A stretch of DNA of 29,888 nt from a virus, in IMG/VR virus record IMGVR_UViG_3300037156_000047, positions 1 through 29,888 of that record. One strand, 5' to 3'. How positions within the stretch are numbered: the stretch's first letter is position 1; each line of letters begins with the position of its first letter. Below the pieces are notes generated by a model that saw nothing but the letters and a program-made list of their open reading frames with translations, did no database searches and was not told where the DNA came from. The translations under genes and the position numbers were made by a program. Below are positions 4,438 to 26,430 of the stretch, one piece after another.

Positions 4438-4776
4438 CTAACTCCTCGTCCAGACGGACGGATAGCGCCCGACGTAGGTAGGCGTGTAGGTGTGAACCAG
4501 CGTTATTAGCGGGTTGTAATATTGAATGGTGGTTATTTTGTTCTGCGTTGCCGCCCAGGTGATCACCCATTTGAAGGTCGGCCCGGCTATCTGAGTGAGC
4601 TTCCGCCCGCTGTAGGTCGGCGTGAGCGTGCCGGGGTCGAGCGGGTACACGGCATCAAAACTGGCGTTGATCAGTGGGAACGCCGCGGCGAGGTCCGTCA
4701 CGATCGAGTTGTGATCGATAATACGCAGCGTGTCATTGACCGCCACCGCGACGGATGTTTGTACGATGTCTGCCAT
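4438..4776 (-). CDS. Unknown 112-aa tail-region protein
   Basis: Not recognised. AAGGGGGCGAT precedes the ATG at 4776. The N-terminus (ADIVQTSVAVAVNDTLRI) resembles the short beta-strand starts seen in its neighbours. The C-terminal half is aromatic-rich (IQYYNPLITLVHTYTPTY). Base composition drops to about 45% GC at 4501-4560. The 41-nt gap upstream holds a palindromic G+C tract (4788-4801). It belongs to the small accessory cluster after the hub gene. Confidence 0.58.
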   Translation of the reverse strand: MADIVQTSVAVAVNDTLRIIDHNSIVTDLAAAFPLINASFDAVYPLDPGTLTPTYSGRKLTQIAGPTFKWVITWAATQNKITTIQYYNPLITLVHTYTPTYVGRYPSVWTRS

Positions 4777-4817
4777 ATCGCCCCCTTGGCCGGCCGGCCG
4801 GTGAATCTACGCTGACC

Positions 4818-5414
4818 CTACGCCAGATTCAGCGTGTACTGCCCCGACGCCGTATTTAACGAAGTCTTGGCGAACAGTTGCAAAAACCGGGCGATCACCT
4901 TGCCCGAGCCAGCCCCAGCCCCGGCCGACGCCGCACAGATGCCCCACTCTTGCAGGGTGGCGTTAGCTACCCCCGTCCCGAAAAACCAGTATCCAAGCCC
5001 CTGCGAGTAGATAGGCGAGCCCTGGATTACTGACGACGGTACCGCCCGGTGAATCTCGACGTTCAACTGTGACAGCGTCGGGTCGGTGGCGGTGGAGTTG
5101 GTCCCGGTGGCGATGTAGGTCACCGCCAGCGAGTCGAAGGCCAGGGCGGCGAATTGGTTGATGATGCTCGCTTTGAAACAGTTCATGATCGTGTTACGGC
5201 CCTCGACCGACTCGATGGCGTGGTTCACGCCGAGCGGGCAGACGCCATGGCGGTGTTCCATCTCCATGCACGGGGCAATCTCCGCCAGGATGATCGCGCG
5301 CTCGTGCGCCGGGAAGTGGTCGGCGACGGCGATCGCCTTGCTGTAGTCGGCCTTGTGGAGGGCGTATTCGCCCCACATGGCGAAGGTGTCGCGGGCGGTG
5401 ATGATGGCGGCCAT
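4818..5414 (-). CDS. Unknown 198-aa protein of the tail-tip cluster
   Basis: Not recognised. The ATG at 5414 lies 3 nt after the previous stop codon (TAAGCCATG). There is no clear ribosome-binding site, so translation probably depends on ribosomes finishing the upstream gene. The first 85 residues are helical and Cys/His-containing (CMEMEHRHGVCPLGVNH), a possible but unproven metal site. The rest is beta-rich with Gly/Ser (ATGTNSTATDP, GYWFFGTGVANATL). It could be a virion protein or a chaperone for one. Confidence 0.58.
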   Translation of the reverse strand: MAAIITARDTFAMWGEYALHKADYSKAIAVADHFPAHERAIILAEIAPCMEMEHRHGVCPLGVNHAIESVEGRNTIMNCFKASIINQFAALAFDSLAVTYIATGTNSTATDPTLSQLNVEIHRAVPSSVIQGSPIYSQGLGYWFFGTGVANATLQEWGICAASAGAGAGSGKVIARFLQLFAKTSLNTASGQYTLNLA

Positions 5415-5417
5415 GGC

Positions 5418-5729
5418 TTAGGTCACCGTGGTGCTAGTGTTGTCGCACCGCTTCCACACCGCTCCATTGCTCACGGCAATACAAGGGCCATTGCCGCCCG
5501 CGTTGCTGGCGAAGCAGATAGCGCCCGCGCCAGCCGTGGCGGCACTTGGGAGCGTGGCAACGGTGTACGACGCCAGTTCGATCGGCGCCGTGGCCTGGGT
5601 GGCGAAGAATAGGGTAAAGAGTTGCAGCACCGTCTGGTTGAAGTTGGCGCCGCCCTGCACGATGGGGAATACGTCGGTGGTCGCGGGGGTGACGACGGCG
5701 GTCATTGCGGAGATTGCGGTATCTGCCAT
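5418..5729 (-). CDS. Short tail-fibre-like protein, 103 aa
   Basis: The N-terminus ADTAISAMTAVVTPATTDVFPIVQ is represented here by the motif TPATTDVFPIVQGG. It matches the start seen on many phage fibre and tail-tip proteins, where it attaches a fibre to the particle. The second half (TLPSAATAGAGAICFASN) is a short Gly/Ala beta motif also frequent in phage minor structural proteins. No receptor-binding domain follows, so this is either a minimal fibre or an adaptor for the next genes. CGGAGGATCACGCCC precedes the ATG at 5729. Confidence 0.65.
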   Translation of the reverse strand: MADTAISAMTAVVTPATTDVFPIVQGGANFNQTVLQLFTLFFATQATAPIELASYTVATLPSAATAGAGAICFASNAGGNGPCIAVSNGAVWKRCDNTSTTVT

Positions 5730-5762
5730 GGGCGTGATCCTCCGGTAGGTGGTGGGGCTGGG

Positions 5763-8700
5763 TTAGGACTGGTAGGCGGCTTGCCCGTACTTGGTGGGCG
5801 CCGGAACGGTGGGCGCTAAGGTGCTGTTGAAGGTGATGGAGTAGTCGGCAGTGGCGGCGAGGGTGCTGGGGTCGGTCAATCCGCTATAAGTGGCACATAG
5901 GGTGCCGCCGGGATCGGTGGCGAAGGTGGCGACCCATGCGATTGGGTTGCTCCACTGGTTTAGCCCAGCGAAAGAAGATCCTGTAAACAAGGCGGTTGAT
6001 AGCGACACGGGCGAAGTACCGGCAATCGTTCCGCGTTGTACGCCGTCAATATAAAGGTAAACATTTCCGCCACCCCATCGGATTAGGAATGTATGCCAAC
6101 CGGCCGATAATTGAACGCTGTATGCTGGCGTACTGTAAGCGGTTCCACCGCTGGATATGCGTGCCGTATAGGTTGCGGGTGTGCCTGCACCTGTAAATAG
6201 TATGACTCTGTTATTTGCCGTTCCATCTGAAATATCAAACAGTACATGTCCGCCAGCATTTAACGCGGTTGCCGCCGCAACATCGCCATCCACGTAGAAC
6301 CGGCCGACAATCGCCCCCTGCGCGGGAGTAACGAACGAGCCGGGAATGGTGAGTGTCTCTAGTGCGCGGGTTGCCGTGGCGGCATTGGTGAACATGGGGC
6401 TGGTGGGGTATGCCTTTGCCTCGATCTGCACGTCCCAAAGGTAAACACCGGATACACCATTGCCAGTAAATGAATTTGTGTTTGATGTCCCGCAAAGCAT
6501 TATTTGAGGGGTGCCGGTGACGACGCTGGATGTCGATATCGCGCACCAGTACCAACCATTGCCAAGTGAGCGGATGTACGTATTCACACCTGTTGTATTT
6601 GTCACGGTACCGAGACTGAGGTCAAAGTAACCTTTTTGTGTAGACGATCCATCAAATGTCAATTCCAGGTAGTTTAGTCCACCAGCTTTGGCGAATACGC
6701 TAAATGCTCCCGGCGCGGCAGGTGTCAGCGACCCGTGCGTTACGTAGTGCGTTCCGGCGCCGACCGAGGCAATGAGGAGATCCGCTGTTGTGGTGCCGCC
6801 TGGAGCCGCAATGGCGTCCGCCGTGACAGTGGCGCGCACTTTGCTGTAACTGGCGTCATTAACGGCTTGCGCCCAGGTGCCTGTGTTGGTGGTGCCTTCC
6901 TCGACCATAACCCCCACCGTCCCAGCAATCGAAGGAAACCGGGGTAACCCCGTGGCCGTCAGCGCGCCTGTATAGGGGTCGTAGGCCGGGGAAGTGCGGC
7001 TAAAACTAGCCGACCGCACATTCCCCGCCGCGTCCGCGTAAATATACGGCGGCAGCGCCCCCGCCACCACGCTCCCGGAGTCGGTGAACACCACCGTATC
7101 CAGCCCCACCACGCCCGGCCCGCTCACGAGCCCCGAGTCCGTCATGGTGAGCGTATCCGACGCCGCCACGATCACGTCCAGCGGCGAGTTATCCGACTGG
7201 GTAGCCGTCAGCGCCTTGGCGCCGATGAGCAGCCCCAGCACGTATTCCTCGAACCCCTTGAGCCGGCTCCCGGCGGTGATGCTGTAGACGTACTTGCCCG
7301 ACCCGAGCGATTGGGTATGCACGTCCTGAATGAGGTACGAGCCCGCCAGGTCGCGCCCACTCGCTCCTAGCGTGAGCGCGGCGGTGATGGTCTGCCCCGC
7401 CATGAGCCCATCGGCGTAGGTGTCAAACGCCACCGTCACCAAGGGATTAGAAAACTCGTCCAGCTGCGCCAGCGCCCGCATACGTGCCCGCGCCAGCGTG
7501 TCGATCAGCGGGTCCTCCAGGTAGCCCTCGTATATGCCATCGCTCCCGGTCGCTAGTCCCGTGGGGTTCTCCAGCGCCTTGATCGTGGCCTGCGAGGCGA
7601 AGTCATCCGCCTGCGTCATGATCGGGATCGACTCGTAGTAAGTGATGACGATCGCCGCCGCCGCCGCTGGAATCTTGTCAGGGTAGAACGCCAACACGGG
7701 CGCATCGCCTGCCTCGGTGCCGATCACCGCATCGAGCCCGCCATCGGCGTCCACGTTCAGCACGCCGACCGTTTCGGCTACCGCAGCGACCGTCAGCGCC
7801 ACGTTGTACAGGCGCTTGAGCACCTTGGTCCGCCCAACCCGGAACGTGAGGTTGTTGTTAAAGCATGGCGTCACGGTAAGCAACGCCTGCGATCCGGTGG
7901 CGCTGGTGTAGAGGTGGACCCACTGCGAGCCCTGAAACTGGTTAGCGGCGTCCTTGTTGACCCACGTCTCCGCGCCGGTGGTGGCGTTGGGGATGATCCG
8001 CACCCGCACGATGTCCGTGTTGGTGTAGGTGAATACCGCCAGCGCCGTTTTCTGGACGCCCGCCTCGGACGGGTAGACCGTGCCGGCGTTGAAATAGACC
8101 CCGTACACCTCGCCCGCACTGGTCGCCACCGCGGAGGGATCCCAGAGCCCTACCCGCCCGAAGCCGGTGGTATCGGTGGGATAGACATCCATCTCGAACC
8201 GCTGGTAGCCGTCGCCCCTGGCGAGTGGCACGAGGGCGGAGAGACGCACGTCGCCCCACACGGCGTCACCGCCGACGACTTGCAGGAATCCCGATTCGGT
8301 AAGGGCGGCGCCGACCTGGGTGGTGGTGAAAATGTAGCCATCCGAGGCGATGTGACCCGCCGGTGGCGCCGGGTTGGTGACGTTGGCGACACCCCACGTC
8401 GCAAGGTTGAGGCTGGCAAACTTTTCCTCGAACAGCAAGTAGCCGTCCGTGCCATACGGCTGCTTGGAGAGACGGAACGCCGTAGTGAGACCGTCGCCGG
8501 TGAAGCGGTCCACCGTGGCGACGGTGGCGGGGTACTTGGCGCCCTTGATGATGACCCTGTTTTGGAGCTGGTCGCGCGCGGTGGTGACGGTCAGGTTGAG
8601 GAAATTATACGAGGTGTCCGTCAGACCGAACGGTGCCGGAATGGTGCCAGGCGCCGACCATACGATCTTTTTGTACGGCGTCACGTCCCACATGTAGCCC

Positions 8701-21310: not shown

Positions 21311-22273
21311 CTAGCGGGTGAGGGTCATCACGCAGTGAGCGTAACTGGGGCCCTTGAACACCGGGGCGCCGAACAGCACCACGACGCGCTGCTGCGCCAG
21401 GTTGGCGAGCAAACCAAGCTCGAACACGCGGGGGATCTCGCCGCCGATGTGATGGAACTCGACCAGGGGCTCCGACACGATGACGATCGGGTAGTCGGTG
21501 TTCGCGCCGTTGGGCGTGGAGACCAGACCGGGATCGGGAATCAGGGGAATCAGCCCCGCCTGCGTCATGATCGCCGTGACCACCAGGCCGGAGGCGGTGG
21601 TGAGCTTGTCGACAACGCGCTTCGTCAACGTGACCTCTTGGTCGTACAGGTCCAACGCCTGCGGACTCGCATAGATGGCGGTGGGGCGGGGATTGAACGT
21701 CGTGTTACCCACCATCGCCGCGACTTGCGCCTTGATGGACGCCTCTATGCTGGCGCCAATGGCGATGGTGCCGGTGAGCGTGATCTGGGTCTCGCCGCCG
21801 ACGTACTGCGTCGTGGTCGGGAGGGTCAGGCTGGTATCCGTGCCCGCCCAGATGGCGCGGCCGGCCACGAGGGTGACGCCAGAAATGGTGTCGAGCAGAT
21901 CCTTGGCAGCCAGTGTACTGGACACGCTGGATCCCTGCTGCTTGGCGATGTCGATGTCGAATTGGGACAGCGTGATCTCGGCGCTGATCGCCTTCATGGC
22001 GAAGGACCGCTCCAGGCGGGTCGGTGCCACGCGGGTGGCGGTGATCTGGCGCGGGTTGGTGAAGCCGCCCTGGGGAATGGTGGTCTGCTCGAAGTAGCGG
22101 CTGGGGTGGCCGGTGGCGGGCTGCTTGCTGATGCGCGCCCAGATGGGCAACTCGCGCCGGACGATGTCCAGCACCTCCGGCTGATATTTGGGCGCCTCGA
22201 TGGAGCCAGGCCCCATGAAATCCGCCGCCGCCTGGAGGGATTTAAACCCGGCCGTTTTAGTATCTTCTGCCAT
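21311..22273 (-). CDS. Major capsid protein (HK97 fold)
   Basis: A 320-aa protein from the ATG at 22273, preceded by CGAAAGGAGCGCC; an in-frame ATG 42 nt upstream has no site. It follows protease and scaffold, the expected order. The pattern fits HK97-fold shells. It has an N-terminal arm, then an E-loop-like stretch (YFEQTTIPQGGFTNPRQI), a spine helix (AEITLSQFDIDIAKQQG) and a P-domain (ATGLVV-like TTASGLVVTAIMTQAG). The closing A-domain strands are YPIVIVSEPLVEFHHIGG and RVVVLFGAPVFKG. If the upstream protease is active, the mature shell may lose some N-terminal residues. The 111-nt leader contains an 11-bp direct repeat. Confidence 0.85.
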   Translation of the reverse strand: MAEDTKTAGFKSLQAAADFMGPGSIEAPKYQPEVLDIVRRELPIWARISKQPATGHPSRYFEQTTIPQGGFTNPRQITATRVAPTRLERSFAMKAISAEITLSQFDIDIAKQQGSSVSSTLAAKDLLDTISGVTLVAGRAIWAGTDTSLTLPTTTQYVGGETQITLTGTIAIGASIEASIKAQVAAMVGNTTFNPRPTAIYASPQALDLYDQEVTLTKRVVDKLTTASGLVVTAIMTQAGLIPLIPDPGLVSTPNGANTDYPIVIVSEPLVEFHHIGGEIPRVFELGLLANLAQQRVVVLFGAPVFKGPSYAHCVMTLTR

Positions 22274-22384: not shown

Positions 22385-22957
22385 CTAGTTAGGCAATGCC
22401 ATGAGCATCTGCGTGCGGGTGACGGGGTCGGTCATGCCCGCCTTGTCCATCGCCGCGGTGAGCACGGCAGCGGTCAACGGGGCGTCGTCCTTGGGGGTGA
22501 GGTCAGCACGGGAGAGCAACGCCGAGATGGCGGGAGATACCGTGACCCGCTCGGGCTGCTGCGCCTGGGCGGTGAGGCGGGCGGTGAGGCTGGCGATCTC
22601 CTTGGATTGGGCTTCCGCCGCGGCGGTGAGAGTGGCGATCGCCGGGTCGGGCGCGACGACAGCGGCGCCCTGCACCGACGCGGTGTCCTGATAGTTGTCG
22701 GCGTTGGCCTTCATGTGCGCCGCGTGCTCGCCCAGGGCGCCCATTGCCGAACTGTCACCATAGCCACTCTTAGCGGCGGCGGCGTGGAGGTCTTGCAGGC
22801 GGTCCAGGTCTTCGGTCAGCGCCGGGGCGCCTTTCTTGACGGAGGCGGCGCGGACGGGCATTGCCGCAGCGACGGCGGCGGTAATGAGCGTGCCGACCGA
22901 CGCCAGTAGGTTGGTGTTGTTTGCGGCCAGCGCGGCGGCCAGTTCTTCGGGGGTCAT
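22385..22957 (-). CDS. Nested product: scaffold protein (internal start)
   Basis: A 190-aa in-frame product from the ATG at 22957, preceded by GGAAGGAGTACACACC. It is mostly predicted helix (TPEELAAALAANNTNLL, TEDLDRLQDLHAAAA, LTAAAEAQSKEIASLTAR) without a catalytic pattern, as expected for a scaffold. The same nested, in-frame scaffold start occurs in the lambda C/Nu3 pair. The stop is 111 nt before the capsid ATG. Confidence 0.6.
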   Translation of the reverse strand: MTPEELAAALAANNTNLLASVGTLITAAVAAAMPVRAASVKKGAPALTEDLDRLQDLHAAAAKSGYGDSSAMGALGEHAAHMKANADNYQDTASVQGAAVVAPDPAIATLTAAAEAQSKEIASLTARLTAQAQQPERVTVSPAISALLSRADLTPKDDAPLTAAVLTAAMDKAGMTDPVTRTQMLMALPN

Positions 22958-23482
22958 GGTGTGTACTCCTTCCGCCGCGGCGGCTAGTCGGGTCTGCTCG
23001 TAAGCTGCGTCCCGCCTGAGCAGGATGGCGGCGCCAGTGAATCCAGTTGAAGCCTTGATGCGGGCCACGCCTGCGCGCTCCGGGGCCAAGGTCACGTCAA
23101 TTTCAAAACTCATCCCGACGTTCTCGCCGGTGGCGTTGGCCGCCTGGATCGTGCGCACGGCGTCGGGAAAGTCCTTGTCCCAGAGCACGCCGCTGACGTG
23201 GATGGCGCCTGCCTCGATTCGCGCCTCGGTGATGACGCCAATTTTCTGCCGCACGTTATGCCCGGTCAGGTCGGAGATGTAGTTCACGCCCATACCAAGG
23301 AGCGTCGGCAGAATCTTTTCAGCCACGGTGGTGGGGAGGATCACGCAGTCCCCGCCACTACCGCCGGGCGCCTTGGTGCTGGGCGTGTCGAGTTGGCAAA
23401 GTATGCCGGTGAAAGGGTGGCGGTTCGGCGCGCCGGTGTCGGGCATGGCGAGGGCCATGGCCTGGAGGGTGAATAGCTTCAT
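22385..23482 (-). CDS. Nested product: prohead protease with scaffold tail (internal start)
   Basis: An alternative in-frame product of 365 aa beginning MKLFTLQAMALAMP. AGAAGGAGGCGCC sits directly before its ATG, one of the best ribosome-binding sites in the window. The protease part has HPFTGILCQLDTPS near its start, then TGH, IGVITEARIEAGAIHV, and GMSFEI with the likely nucleophile Ser. It would cleave scaffold and shell during capsid maturation. Separate translation from this site would restore the gene structure seen in most related phages. Confidence 0.65.
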   Translation of the reverse strand: MKLFTLQAMALAMPDTGAPNRHPFTGILCQLDTPSTKAPGGSGGDCVILPTTVAEKILPTLLGMGVNYISDLTGHNVRQKIGVITEARIEAGAIHVSGVLWDKDFPDAVRTIQAANATGENVGMSFEIDVTLAPERAGVARIKASTGFTGAAILLRRDAAYEQTRLAAAAEGVHTMTPEELAAALAANNTNLLASVGTLITAAVAAAMPVRAASVKKGAPALTEDLDRLQDLHAAAAKSGYGDSSAMGALGEHAAHMKANADNYQDTASVQGAAVVAPDPAIATLTAAAEAQSKEIASLTARLTAQAQQPERVTVSPAISALLSRADLTPKDDAPLTAAVLTAAMDKAGMTDPVTRTQMLMALPN

Positions 23483-24298
23483 GGCGCCTCCTTCTAGGTC
23501 GGCAACTGCCCCAAGACCGGCGGAAATTACGGCGCAGCGGCAATTTGGATGTTTTGGCGGGGCGTCGCCGCTCCAGCCGTCCGGGGCGTCGAAGTCGGTG
23601 TCGAGGGCGCGAATCTGACCATCCATGGCGTCGCAATGCCCGCAACACCTGGCGTCCGACGTGGCGCTCCACTGCTTCAGTAGCCCCATTTCCGGGAAGT
23701 CGGCGGCCACGGCCACCATCTGCGCCAGGCGGGCGGCGTTCATCGCCGAGTTAATTTCAGTCCTGGCGATCCGCTCGAGCTTCCACGCCTCTTGCTCTAT
23801 GGACTCGCCCAGCCGTTTGGCAGCGGGTCGGATGCCCTCGCCCATCGTGAGGCTCACACCGAGGGAATCTGCGGCGGCGGTGCTGATGCCGTCGCCAAAC
23901 TTGGTCAGCAACGCCTCTTGCGGGTCGCTGATATGGAGGATGGCGTCGATCGGGAGAAAGGCCGCCACCTGGGAGGCAACCTCTGGATCGCCCACGTTGG
24001 CGGCGACGTCCTCTAGCGCGTGACCGGCGCCCATTTCGATCGCCGTGGTGGTGCTGCGGGCCAGGCTGGCGAGCATCTCCGGGATCGACTCACTGAGGAC
24101 TTGCGAGACCTCGAAAATGGTGTGGGCGGCGTGTTGGCTGCGTACCGTGTCGCCGTGGCCGGTGTCGAGTAACTTGACCAGACGGGAGACCATCTCCTTC
24201 TTGGCCCGGCGGAAGATGCGCTGGAGGCGCATCCATGCAGTGGCTTCGAGGTCGAGGGCGGCGCGGGCGTGTTCGGCGGGGAGTGGGTCGAGGGCCAT
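22385..24298 (-). CDS. MuF-prohead protease-scaffold in one 637-aa reading frame
   Basis: One uninterrupted frame from the ATG at 24298 (CGGAGGGCACACC before it). Residues 1-272 are a MuF-type head morphogenesis protein: ARTEINSAMNAARL near 176, WSATSDARCCGHCDAMDG, then the closing PKHPNCRCAV near 250. Residues from 273 are a U35-like prohead serine protease. Its candidate His is in DLTGHNVRQKIG (about 346) and its candidate Ser in ENVGMSFEI (about 396). Residues 448-637 are helical, Ala-rich scaffold-like sequence. Two internal ATGs at 23482 and 22957 carry strong sites. The three products are normally encoded by two or three separate genes. Whether the full-length fusion or the internal products dominate is unknown. 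A +1-frame TAG lies just before the first internal site, so an ancestral or sequencing frameshift is possible. Confidence 0.82.
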   Translation of the reverse strand: MALDPLPAEHARAALDLEATAWMRLQRIFRRAKKEMVSRLVKLLDTGHGDTVRSQHAAHTIFEVSQVLSESIPEMLASLARSTTTAIEMGAGHALEDVAANVGDPEVASQVAAFLPIDAILHISDPQEALLTKFGDGISTAAADSLGVSLTMGEGIRPAAKRLGESIEQEAWKLERIARTEINSAMNAARLAQMVAVAADFPEMGLLKQWSATSDARCCGHCDAMDGQIRALDTDFDAPDGWSGDAPPKHPNCRCAVISAGLGAVADLEGGAMKLFTLQAMALAMPDTGAPNRHPFTGILCQLDTPSTKAPGGSGGDCVILPTTVAEKILPTLLGMGVNYISDLTGHNVRQKIGVITEARIEAGAIHVSGVLWDKDFPDAVRTIQAANATGENVGMSFEIDVTLAPERAGVARIKASTGFTGAAILLRRDAAYEQTRLAAAAEGVHTMTPEELAAALAANNTNLLASVGTLITAAVAAAMPVRAASVKKGAPALTEDLDRLQDLHAAAAKSGYGDSSAMGALGEHAAHMKANADNYQDTASVQGAAVVAPDPAIATLTAAAEAQSKEIASLTARLTAQAQQPERVTVSPAISALLSRADLTPKDDAPLTAAVLTAAMDKAGMTDPVTRTQMLMALPN

Positions 24299-24321
24299 GG
24301 TGTGCCCTCCGATTGCCGCGC

Positions 24322-24645
24322 CTAGCTGAACATCAGGTTAGTTGCCTGTGTAAACTGGGGAAGGTTCTGGTACGGGGTGGTTGCTTGCTCCTGTGTGTCA
24401 AGGCGCCAGCCTCGGCCGATGTCGGAGCGTCGCCAGAGGTTGAGCATGCCGTCTTGGGTGATCGTGACCATCGTCCCGTCTTTGATTCTCGACACCACGA
24501 CAAGAGCGCCGTCCTGGAGCATGCCTTCGATGGTCATGTACCGGACCTCCACGCCGCCGCGGTCACGAATGGCGACAATCTCGGGGTCGAGCGGGGCGAG
24601 TGAATCTCCCCAAGGCTCGACAACCTCACCATTCATTCCGATCAT
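24322..24645 (-). CDS. Unknown 107-aa protein upstream of MuF
   Basis: Not recognised. CCGGAGGGCGCCAG precedes the ATG at 24645. It looks like a compact beta protein (VVEPWGDSLAPLDPEI, GALVVVSRIKDGTMVTI, LNLWRRSDIGRGWRL) with a polar end. It sits between portal and MuF genes, where small head-associated proteins are common. No membrane span or metal motif is visible. Confidence 0.6.
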   Translation of the reverse strand: MIGMNGEVVEPWGDSLAPLDPEIVAIRDRGGVEVRYMTIEGMLQDGALVVVSRIKDGTMVTITQDGMLNLWRRSDIGRGWRLDTQEQATTPYQNLPQFTQATNLMFS

Positions 24646-24806: not shown

Positions 24807-25031
24807 CTAGGTGAAGTCCGTCGCCACGACCGCCAACGCCGCAGCCAGACCGCCGGAGAGGCCTGCCAGTGCGGCGAGGTCGGCGTTGATCAGCGCCGCG
24901 TCCCGGACGTGGCCCTTGATGGCGTTGAGTTGGGCGGTGATATCAATACCCGTGGCGAGGCCAAGGGTTTGATCGGCGCCAACCGCAGCGGCGATGGCGG
25001 TGGTGAGGTCTGCGAGTGCTGTTCCAGCCAT
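24807..25031 (-). CDS. Unknown 74-aa Ala-rich protein
   Basis: The ATG at 25031 is chosen because AGGAGGCTCCCC precedes it and the portal stop lies just upstream; longer forms would run into the portal gene. The protein is strongly helical (LADLTTAIAAAVGADQ, TAQLNAIKGHVRDAAL) and ends in an Ala/Leu segment (GGLAAALAVVATDF) too weak to call a membrane span. Position between portal and MuF suggests a head-assembly accessory. Not recognised. Confidence 0.6.
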   Translation of the reverse strand: MAGTALADLTTAIAAAVGADQTLGLATGIDITAQLNAIKGHVRDAALINADLAALAGLSGGLAAALAVVATDFT

Positions 25032-25041
25032 GGGGAGCCTC

Positions 25042-26430
25042 CTATTTACGGGCGGGCTTGCGGCCCTTGGGTGGGGTGTCGGGGGTGCCCTTGGCGGGCT
25101 TGTCGTCGGGGCTCGCCACCGCGGCGGGCTGGGGTGCATTTTCGTCCGGGTTGGCGCTGGGCACCGTGGCGGCGTCTCCGCGCGCCTTGGCGATCAGGAT
25201 GGCGTTTTCGGTGGCGGTGAGGGCGCCGCGCCCGCCTTCTAGCGGCTCCAGCCCTAGCTCGTGGCGGTGCTCGTCGGGGACCGTGATGCCCGCCCCGATG
25301 AGGATCTCCCACACTTGCGCCTGCGCCAAGTCGTCCTCGTTGGTGAGCCCCTCGAAGACGAACGCCAGGTCATACCAACCAAGCGCCCGGCCTATTGCCT
25401 CGCGGGTGAGATACTCCGCCAGCAGCCGCGCCATGGGGAGGATGGCGCCCGCGTCGTCGGCTTCCGCCATTTCCTCGGCGGTGGCGCGGTTGACGGAGGT
25501 TTCCAAGTTGAGTTTCTGCGGGGAGATCCCGAACGCCAGGGCGATGAGCCTGACCAGCCAGGACTGCCACGCAAGGCGGAGGTCGGCGTCGGTGCCAGCG
25601 CCAAGCTTGAGCACTTGCGCCATGGCGCCCTTGGCACCCTCGGCGGGAGATTCGGACCCGCCGATAATGGGCGTCTCGCCCTGGCCCTCGACGCTGTCCT
25701 GCCAGTAGAGCCGGAAGGCGTCCACCTGGTCGGGCGTGATCGACGCGCCCAGGTCGAGCATGAATGACGGCGCGGCGTTGCCGGCGATCTTGCTGGCGAA
25801 GTCGAAACTGGAGACGAACGCGCAAATGAGATTGAACGCCACCTCCACCGGCGTGAGACCGAATGGCGTGGAGGTGCGGGGGTTCATCCGCAGGTACATG
25901 AGTTGGTCGTTGCGGAGCGGGATGTCGTGGCCCGCATAGCCTACGTGTTGAACGTACCGAGCTTCGTTGGGGGCGCCGGTCCACGCCGGGTAGAGGCGGA
26001 TCGTGGAGCCGTCCACCGGGAACAGCCAGAGCGGGTGGAGTGGGTCGGCGCTGACGACGATCTCCACCGCACCGGCGATGGTCATCGTGTCGTCAATGAC
26101 CTGCTCCGCCAGGGAGCGGAAGGAGTCGTCTTTGTTGGGCGAGGACAGGCAGACGGTGACGATCGCCGCGCGCTTCTCCATATCCGGCGTCATCTCGAGG
26201 CCGGGCGCCGCTACGATCTTCCACGCCGCGGCGGCTACGGGGTTTTTTGTGACGTTGAGCGCCGCGCGGACTAAGGGGTGCTCCGCGAAGCGCTGGAGGT
26301 TGGCTTGTGTAGGCTTGGGGATGGGGCGTTGCGTGCCACCGCCGCGGAAGGCGTTGATCCAGGAGGGGTAGGGCTGGGTGCCGCGGGTGGGAGGTGCCGG
26401 TGCTGTCGGTGCGGCGTGGATGCGGGCCAT
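25042..26430 (-). CDS. Portal protein
   Basis: A 462-aa portal, the dodecameric DNA gate at one capsid vertex. The order terminase, portal, MuF, protease, capsid fits. The sequence follows the SPP1/HK97-type plan. It has an N-terminal region (WINAFRGGG), then wing strands (ALNVTKNPVAAAAWKI, GAVEIVVSADPLHPLW) and the LYLRMNP-like step LMYLRMNPRTSTPFGLTP. The stem/clip helices include AFGISPQKLNLETSVNRA, a very typical portal segment, and the crown helix region is EEMAEADDAGAILPMARL. The last 45 residues are a disordered Pro/Lys tail (KGRKPARK). GTAGGAGGGCTAACCC precedes the ATG. Confidence 0.93.
   Translation of the reverse strand: MARIHAAPTAPAPPTRGTQPYPSWINAFRGGGTQRPIPKPTQANLQRFAEHPLVRAALNVTKNPVAAAAWKIVAAPGLEMTPDMEKRAAIVTVCLSSPNKDDSFRSLAEQVIDDTMTIAGAVEIVVSADPLHPLWLFPVDGSTIRLYPAWTGAPNEARYVQHVGYAGHDIPLRNDQLMYLRMNPRTSTPFGLTPVEVAFNLICAFVSSFDFASKIAGNAAPSFMLDLGASITPDQVDAFRLYWQDSVEGQGETPIIGGSESPAEGAKGAMAQVLKLGAGTDADLRLAWQSWLVRLIALAFGISPQKLNLETSVNRATAEEMAEADDAGAILPMARLLAEYLTREAIGRALGWYDLAFVFEGLTNEDDLAQAQVWEILIGAGITVPDEHRHELGLEPLEGGRGALTATENAILIAKARGDAATVPSANPDENAPQPAAVASPDDKPAKGTPDTPPKGRKPARK

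Follow-up and report, generated by a model that had tools for sequence, protein, structure and literature searches.

A head-assembly frame joining MuF, prohead protease and scaffold, with strong start sites at both internal joints

In phage Mu the head genes follow the order portal, MuF, protease with a nested scaffold, and capsid; scaffold Z starts within gene I, behind a Shine-Dalgarno sequence, whereas F is a separate gene and gene G lies between F and I. In phage lambda, the scaffold Nu3 is nested in frame within the 3'-terminal part of protease gene C, which contains no MuF and whose product is an S49-type protease that differs in fold from the protease described here. A scaffold start with a Shine-Dalgarno sequence has also been predicted inside protease gene 27 of the Pseudomonas Mu-like phage PaMx73, with no MuF described in that frame (PMC4378225). 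Fusions of MuF and protease have been reported for Microbacterium cluster EG phages (PMC7302621) and annotated in Mycobacterium cluster B1 phages, whose authors found no scaffold (PMC9584339).

The window, that is, the whole stretch of 29,888 bases analyzed here, is a single metagenomic IMG/VR contig and the only sequence source of the MuF fusion that we describe. One open frame on its minus strand (22385-24298) runs from ATG to TAG over 637 codons and encodes a MuF domain, a prohead protease and a helical scaffold, in this order. The initial annotation had read the frame in the same way, and Pfam, the AlphaFold model and the relatives agree with it (Table 1). The order portal-MuF-protease/scaffold-capsid is that of Mu, Mu gene G excepted, and the scaffold start lies within the frame behind a Shine-Dalgarno sequence as it does in Mu; the in-frame scaffold at the 3' end resembles lambda, and MuF and protease are in one gene as in the actinobacteriophage fusions (Inchworm gp9; Microbacterium EG). 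For the neighboring capsid gene, the copy in the relative L004 (10530-11534) matches PHROG 10, major head protein. It seems probable that this is a tailed-phage head-assembly gene in which three genes, usually separate or nested, share one frame with three starts and give nested products.

Table 1. Coordinates of the head-assembly frame, its parts and its neighbors in the window
Feature	Position	Strand	Evidence
MuF-protease-scaffold single frame	22385..24298	-	637 codons, uninterrupted
MuF-like minor head protein part, residues 1-258	23525..24298	-	PF04233; PHROG head morphogenesis; A-HIS1
MuF/protease linker, residues 259-272, contains internal ribosome-binding site	23483..23524	-	GC3 0.50
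Prohead protease part, residues 273-447, putative start ATG 23482	22958..23482	-	alignment, AlphaFold, Foldseek
Scaffold part, residues 448-637, putative start ATG 22957	22388..22957	-	helical; conserved C-terminal segment
Shine-Dalgarno GGAGG, outer start ATG 24298	24306..24310	-	pairing -10.0, rank 2/43
Internal Shine-Dalgarno AAGGAGG before ATG 23482	23487..23493	-	-11.1, frame's best
Internal Shine-Dalgarno AAGGAG before ATG 22957	22966..22971	-	sequence; pairing score; relatives
Portal gene, upstream neighbor	25042..26430	-	Pfam PF04860 E=2e-29
Major capsid protein gene, directly downstream neighbor	21311..22273	-	place and family shared with L004 10530-11534 and further loci

MuF was the sole family that Pfam recognized in the 637-codon frame: PF04233 (Phage_Mu_F) matched residues 149-258 (E=1.1e-16, 62 bits against a curated cut-off of 29.6), which bears out the MuF signatures first noticed at the front of the frame. 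The PHROG matches of this part were head morphogenesis families, and it is 33% identical to the minor head protein of A-HIS1, the only hit of the 637-residue protein in a tblastn search of 50,697 phage records. The MuF part is located near the portal gene (25042-26430) and upstream of the protease. Two small frames without family match separate it from the portal, one at 24322-24645(-) with a strong Shine-Dalgarno sequence (-10.0) and the other at 24807-25139(-).

The protease and scaffold labels go beyond what sequence alone can prove, and they are supported by structure prediction and by relatives. When AlphaFold was given the single sequence of all 637 residues, the pLDDT was only 42. With an alignment of 34 sequences, structure prediction, which had been proposed as a check on the parts, gave a confident protease followed by scaffold helices: pLDDT was about 90-97 across the protease core, disorder was predicted for 164-176, the scaffold Met being residue 176, and helices began at 178. 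Foldseek found T4 gp21 (5jbl) as the best solved fold (E=4e-5, prob 1.00), followed by herpesvirus assemblins with weaker E-values, and the BFVD structure matches included many prohead proteases. His75 and Ser125 (protease numbering) are invariant in the 34 sequences, in agreement with the conserved His and Ser of prohead serine proteases, and are putatively catalytic. The U35-like protease suggested from a His and Ser pattern is therefore right at the level of fold. A detectable sequence match is absent, however: Pfam Peptidase_S78 (PF04586) and Mu-like_Pro (PF10123, the family of Mu I) did not match in the window, the protease parts of 14 family members hit no Pfam profile at E<=10, hhalign to HK97 gp4 was empty and a PDB sequence search gave no signal.

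Both internal ATGs are in frame, the one at 23482 (MKLF) being preceded by gaaggaggcgcc and the one at 22957 (MTPE) by ggaaggagtacacacc. All 43 in-frame ATG, GTG and TTG codons were scored by pairing of their Shine-Dalgarno region with the 16S tail. The top three were 23482 (-11.1 kcal/mol), 24298 (-10.0) and 22957 (-8.3), the fourth scoring -6.5, so that the three best pairs of Shine-Dalgarno and start coincide exactly with the three boundaries of the frame; a context matrix derived from 13 further phage genes gave the identical top three. The good ribosome-binding sites first pointed out at 23482 and 22957 are thus among the best three of 43. That of ATG 23482 is also second among the 23 phage start sites that were scored, with a spacing of just 4 bases between AAGGAGG and ATG. 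As controls, the nested start annotated for Mu Z ranked 1 of 18 in gene I and the annotated lambda Nu3 start ranked 3 of 38, for which reason this rank is a good yet imperfect guide. Prediction of mRNA accessibility did not single out the internal starts. In a shuffle of synonymous codons restricted to the window, the internal Shine-Dalgarno sequences were not significant (p=0.16 and 0.33), because the residues E-G-G and E-G-V favor such motifs. They may therefore stem from the encoded amino acids, and it is the relatives that decide.

No relative was returned when viral and genome contigs were searched with the whole protein, and tblastn of the protease-scaffold part in phages found nothing. 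Relatives were reached through the portal first and then through protease alignments, giving a comparison set of 78 distinct frames of the protease, the window included. The portal search led to L003 and L004, in which the portal is followed by a 373-residue protein and then by the capsid protein, with no MuF; this protein matches the protease part of the window at 40% over 164 residues. Protease and scaffold are in one frame in 58 of the 78. In the clade adjoining the window, the scaffold is a gene of its own with a matching C-terminal segment (L062, L082, L085, L101), which together with the helices of the model agrees with the scaffold-like helices of the initial annotation.

The scaffold boundary has a Met, or a GTG or TTG start, at a nearly fixed place. 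A Shine-Dalgarno core (GGAG, AGGA or GAGG at -16 to -5) precedes it in 56 of 57 scorable frames, compared with 28 of the 612 ATGs found elsewhere in frame and about 9% of the remaining codons overall, although these frames are related sequences and less independent than the Fisher value implies. The start codon is ATG except in three frames with GTG or TTG, all behind AAGGAGG; L003/L004, L019 and L020 have such an internal TTG or GTG. In L022, a prophage of Ralstonia sp. TCR112, the scaffold start (MTKEE) would be the sole internal start. The boundary Shine-Dalgarno is written through different residue strings (QE, AGD, SEI, KGE, EEK) and in different codon registers. The scaffold is read in frame as the C-terminal part of the protease gene, a nested arrangement of the known kind already recognized by its likeness to lambda C/Nu3 and represented also by Mu I/Z. 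Comparison with the relatives shows ATG 22957 to be a real gene boundary, and the nested scaffold start can be called close to certain. The conservation strongly supports the earlier claim of a free scaffold, which is almost certainly made from this ATG. With this start kept in dozens of related phages, it is very probable that several nested proteins come from one gene. That both internal ATGs are unused, chance Shine-Dalgarno-like sequences in a gene whose sole product is the 637-residue protein is hardly credible: the window-only codon shuffles would allow it, but the Shine-Dalgarno of the scaffold start is kept in those 56 of 57 related frames, the sister clade has separate scaffold genes, and excess scaffold is generally needed, as in lambda and Mu.

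Concerning the protease start, no domain precedes the protease in L003/L004, L016, L019 and L020. The protease genes of L003/L004 and L020 start at the position of ATG 23482, and those of L016 and L019 close to it. By this comparison ATG 23482 also appears as a real gene boundary, and the gene starts of relatives that have no front domain support it as the predicted protease start. Production of a protease-scaffold from it is likely. A different reading would be that only the scaffold start is used and that ATG 23482 is a leftover of a recent two-gene fusion, the gene giving a polyprotein, from which cleavage frees MuF, plus free scaffold. The lowest codon adaptation of the frame is found in the MuF/protease linker, as expected of DNA that formerly ended one gene and began another; relatives fused to DUF6582 mostly have no Shine-Dalgarno start at the protease boundary, and the MuF-protease joint of Inchworm gp9 has no strong one. 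We consider this reading unlikely, however, since the Shine-Dalgarno of ATG 23482 is the best of the frame and the second of 23 in the phage, and an unused site should decay unless the fusion were very young.

MuF is fused to the protease in the window only (1 of the 78 frames), and among these frames no relative was found with a fused MuF plus a start like ATG 23482. An HMM search with the MuF of the window against the relatives' frames gave only A-HIS1. MuF relatives from other records are stand-alone genes, and no match was found between them and this protease profile. PF04233 is present in 3 of 32 relative records and was seen beside the protease in L005 only, where the stop of a stand-alone MuF gene overlaps with the start of the protease gene (TGATG). 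L005 and the window belong to one well supported clade (97/93), whose internal order is open and in which the window lies on a long branch. In the simplest history, MuF would first have been a gene immediately upstream of the protease gene, which is the arrangement of L005 and approximately that of Mu; the MuF stop would then have been lost in the lineage leading to the window, and the protease gene would have kept its ribosome-binding site. The poor codon adaptation of the linker (GC3 0.50 vs 0.80-0.85 in the three domains) fits this history.

The join might instead be an assembly or sequencing artefact, with the real MuF stopping just before the ribosome-binding site of the protease and the two genes separate as in L005. 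This is consistent with the uniqueness of the join among the 78 frames and with a TAG in the +1 frame at codon 268, directly before AAGGAGG. Yet the scaffold Shine-Dalgarno likewise has a TAG in the +1 frame before it, at a joint where the relatives make the in-frame fusion certain, which means that such TAGs arise by chance (there are 20 in 637 codons). Furthermore, the AVI that follows NCRC matches the MuF of A-HIS1 in the frame of the window, and frames of 1873 and 1163 codons are intact on the same contig, making frequent indels unlikely. An artefact is accordingly quite improbable, and the MuF-protease-scaffold fusion is in our opinion very likely real and made. Nor was the TAG before ATG 23482 accepted as proving that a stop was lost recently, as a TAG likewise precedes ATG 22957, at a joint whose protease-scaffold fusion is common to relatives.

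The actinobacteriophage fusions offer the closest comparison for the front of the frame. In Inchworm gp9, one of the Mycobacterium cluster B1 cases, MuF comes first (260-339, slightly under the Pfam cut-off) and a scaffold-like tail, judged by eye, is at the end, but there is no strong Shine-Dalgarno at the MuF/protease joint (best -4.1). No sequence kinship of the window protein to these fusions, and with it no sign of common descent, was found by tblastn in 50,697 phage records. The initial annotation was upheld in its order of domains, its two internal starts and its proposal of nested products, whereas its view that a MuF in front is unusual stands within this protease family (1/78) and not in general, as actinobacteriophage fusions had already been described (PMC7302621, PMC9584339). 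Nested scaffolds and MuF-protease fusions being each known already, what is unusual is a MuF fusion that retains strong starts at both joints.

In most relatives the slot before the protease is occupied by DUF6582 (PF20223 by Pfam, the rest by motif). In L006-L015 and most of L025-L100 it is the usual N-terminal partner of the prohead protease, a pairing which suggests that this domain of unknown function acts in head assembly; L100 seemingly has two DUF6582-like copies. In L080 (4221-6182, +) a NUDIX domain and DUF6582 are fused before the protease-scaffold, and in L024 (IMGVR_UViG_2883327909_000003, 4440-6002, +) an Acb1 anti-CBASS domain (PF23474, E=4e-42) precedes it in frame. The Acb1 domain has two HxT motifs; a good start codon with a Shine-Dalgarno was not found before it in L024. 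In L007 a frame starting MAVGIYVIRNVSNGKVYIGSSGD (5079-5795, +), putatively GIY-YIG endonuclease-like, lies between the portal and protease genes. A rather speculative idea, which we hold doubtful, is that the front of the frame is a procapsid loading slot whose passengers differ by phage (MuF, Acb1, NUDIX with DUF6582, DUF6582), the scaffold tail carrying them into the head and internal starts setting the copies per layer.

For the window we infer three products, their ratio and their cleavage as follows. Initiation at ATG 24298 would give a MuF-protease-scaffold of 637 residues, at ATG 23482 a protease-scaffold of 365 and at ATG 22957 a free scaffold of 190, and the strength of each initiation would set the copy number of these nested proteins. 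All three would have the scaffold tail in common and therefore co-assemble with the capsid protein. A few long forms would bring the protease, as well as MuF beside the portal, into the procapsid, and during maturation the protease would cut scaffold, linker and itself loose. If this is true, the proportions of three head components made from one gene depend on initiation strength alone. MuF, about whose role little is understood, would then also be bound physically to the protease, and this would account for the way in which low-copy proteins reach the portal vertex. For the family, a gene caller that keeps the longest frame alone would miss the free scaffold, and the conserved internal start provides a simple annotation rule for this large, hitherto unlabelled group of protease-scaffold genes.
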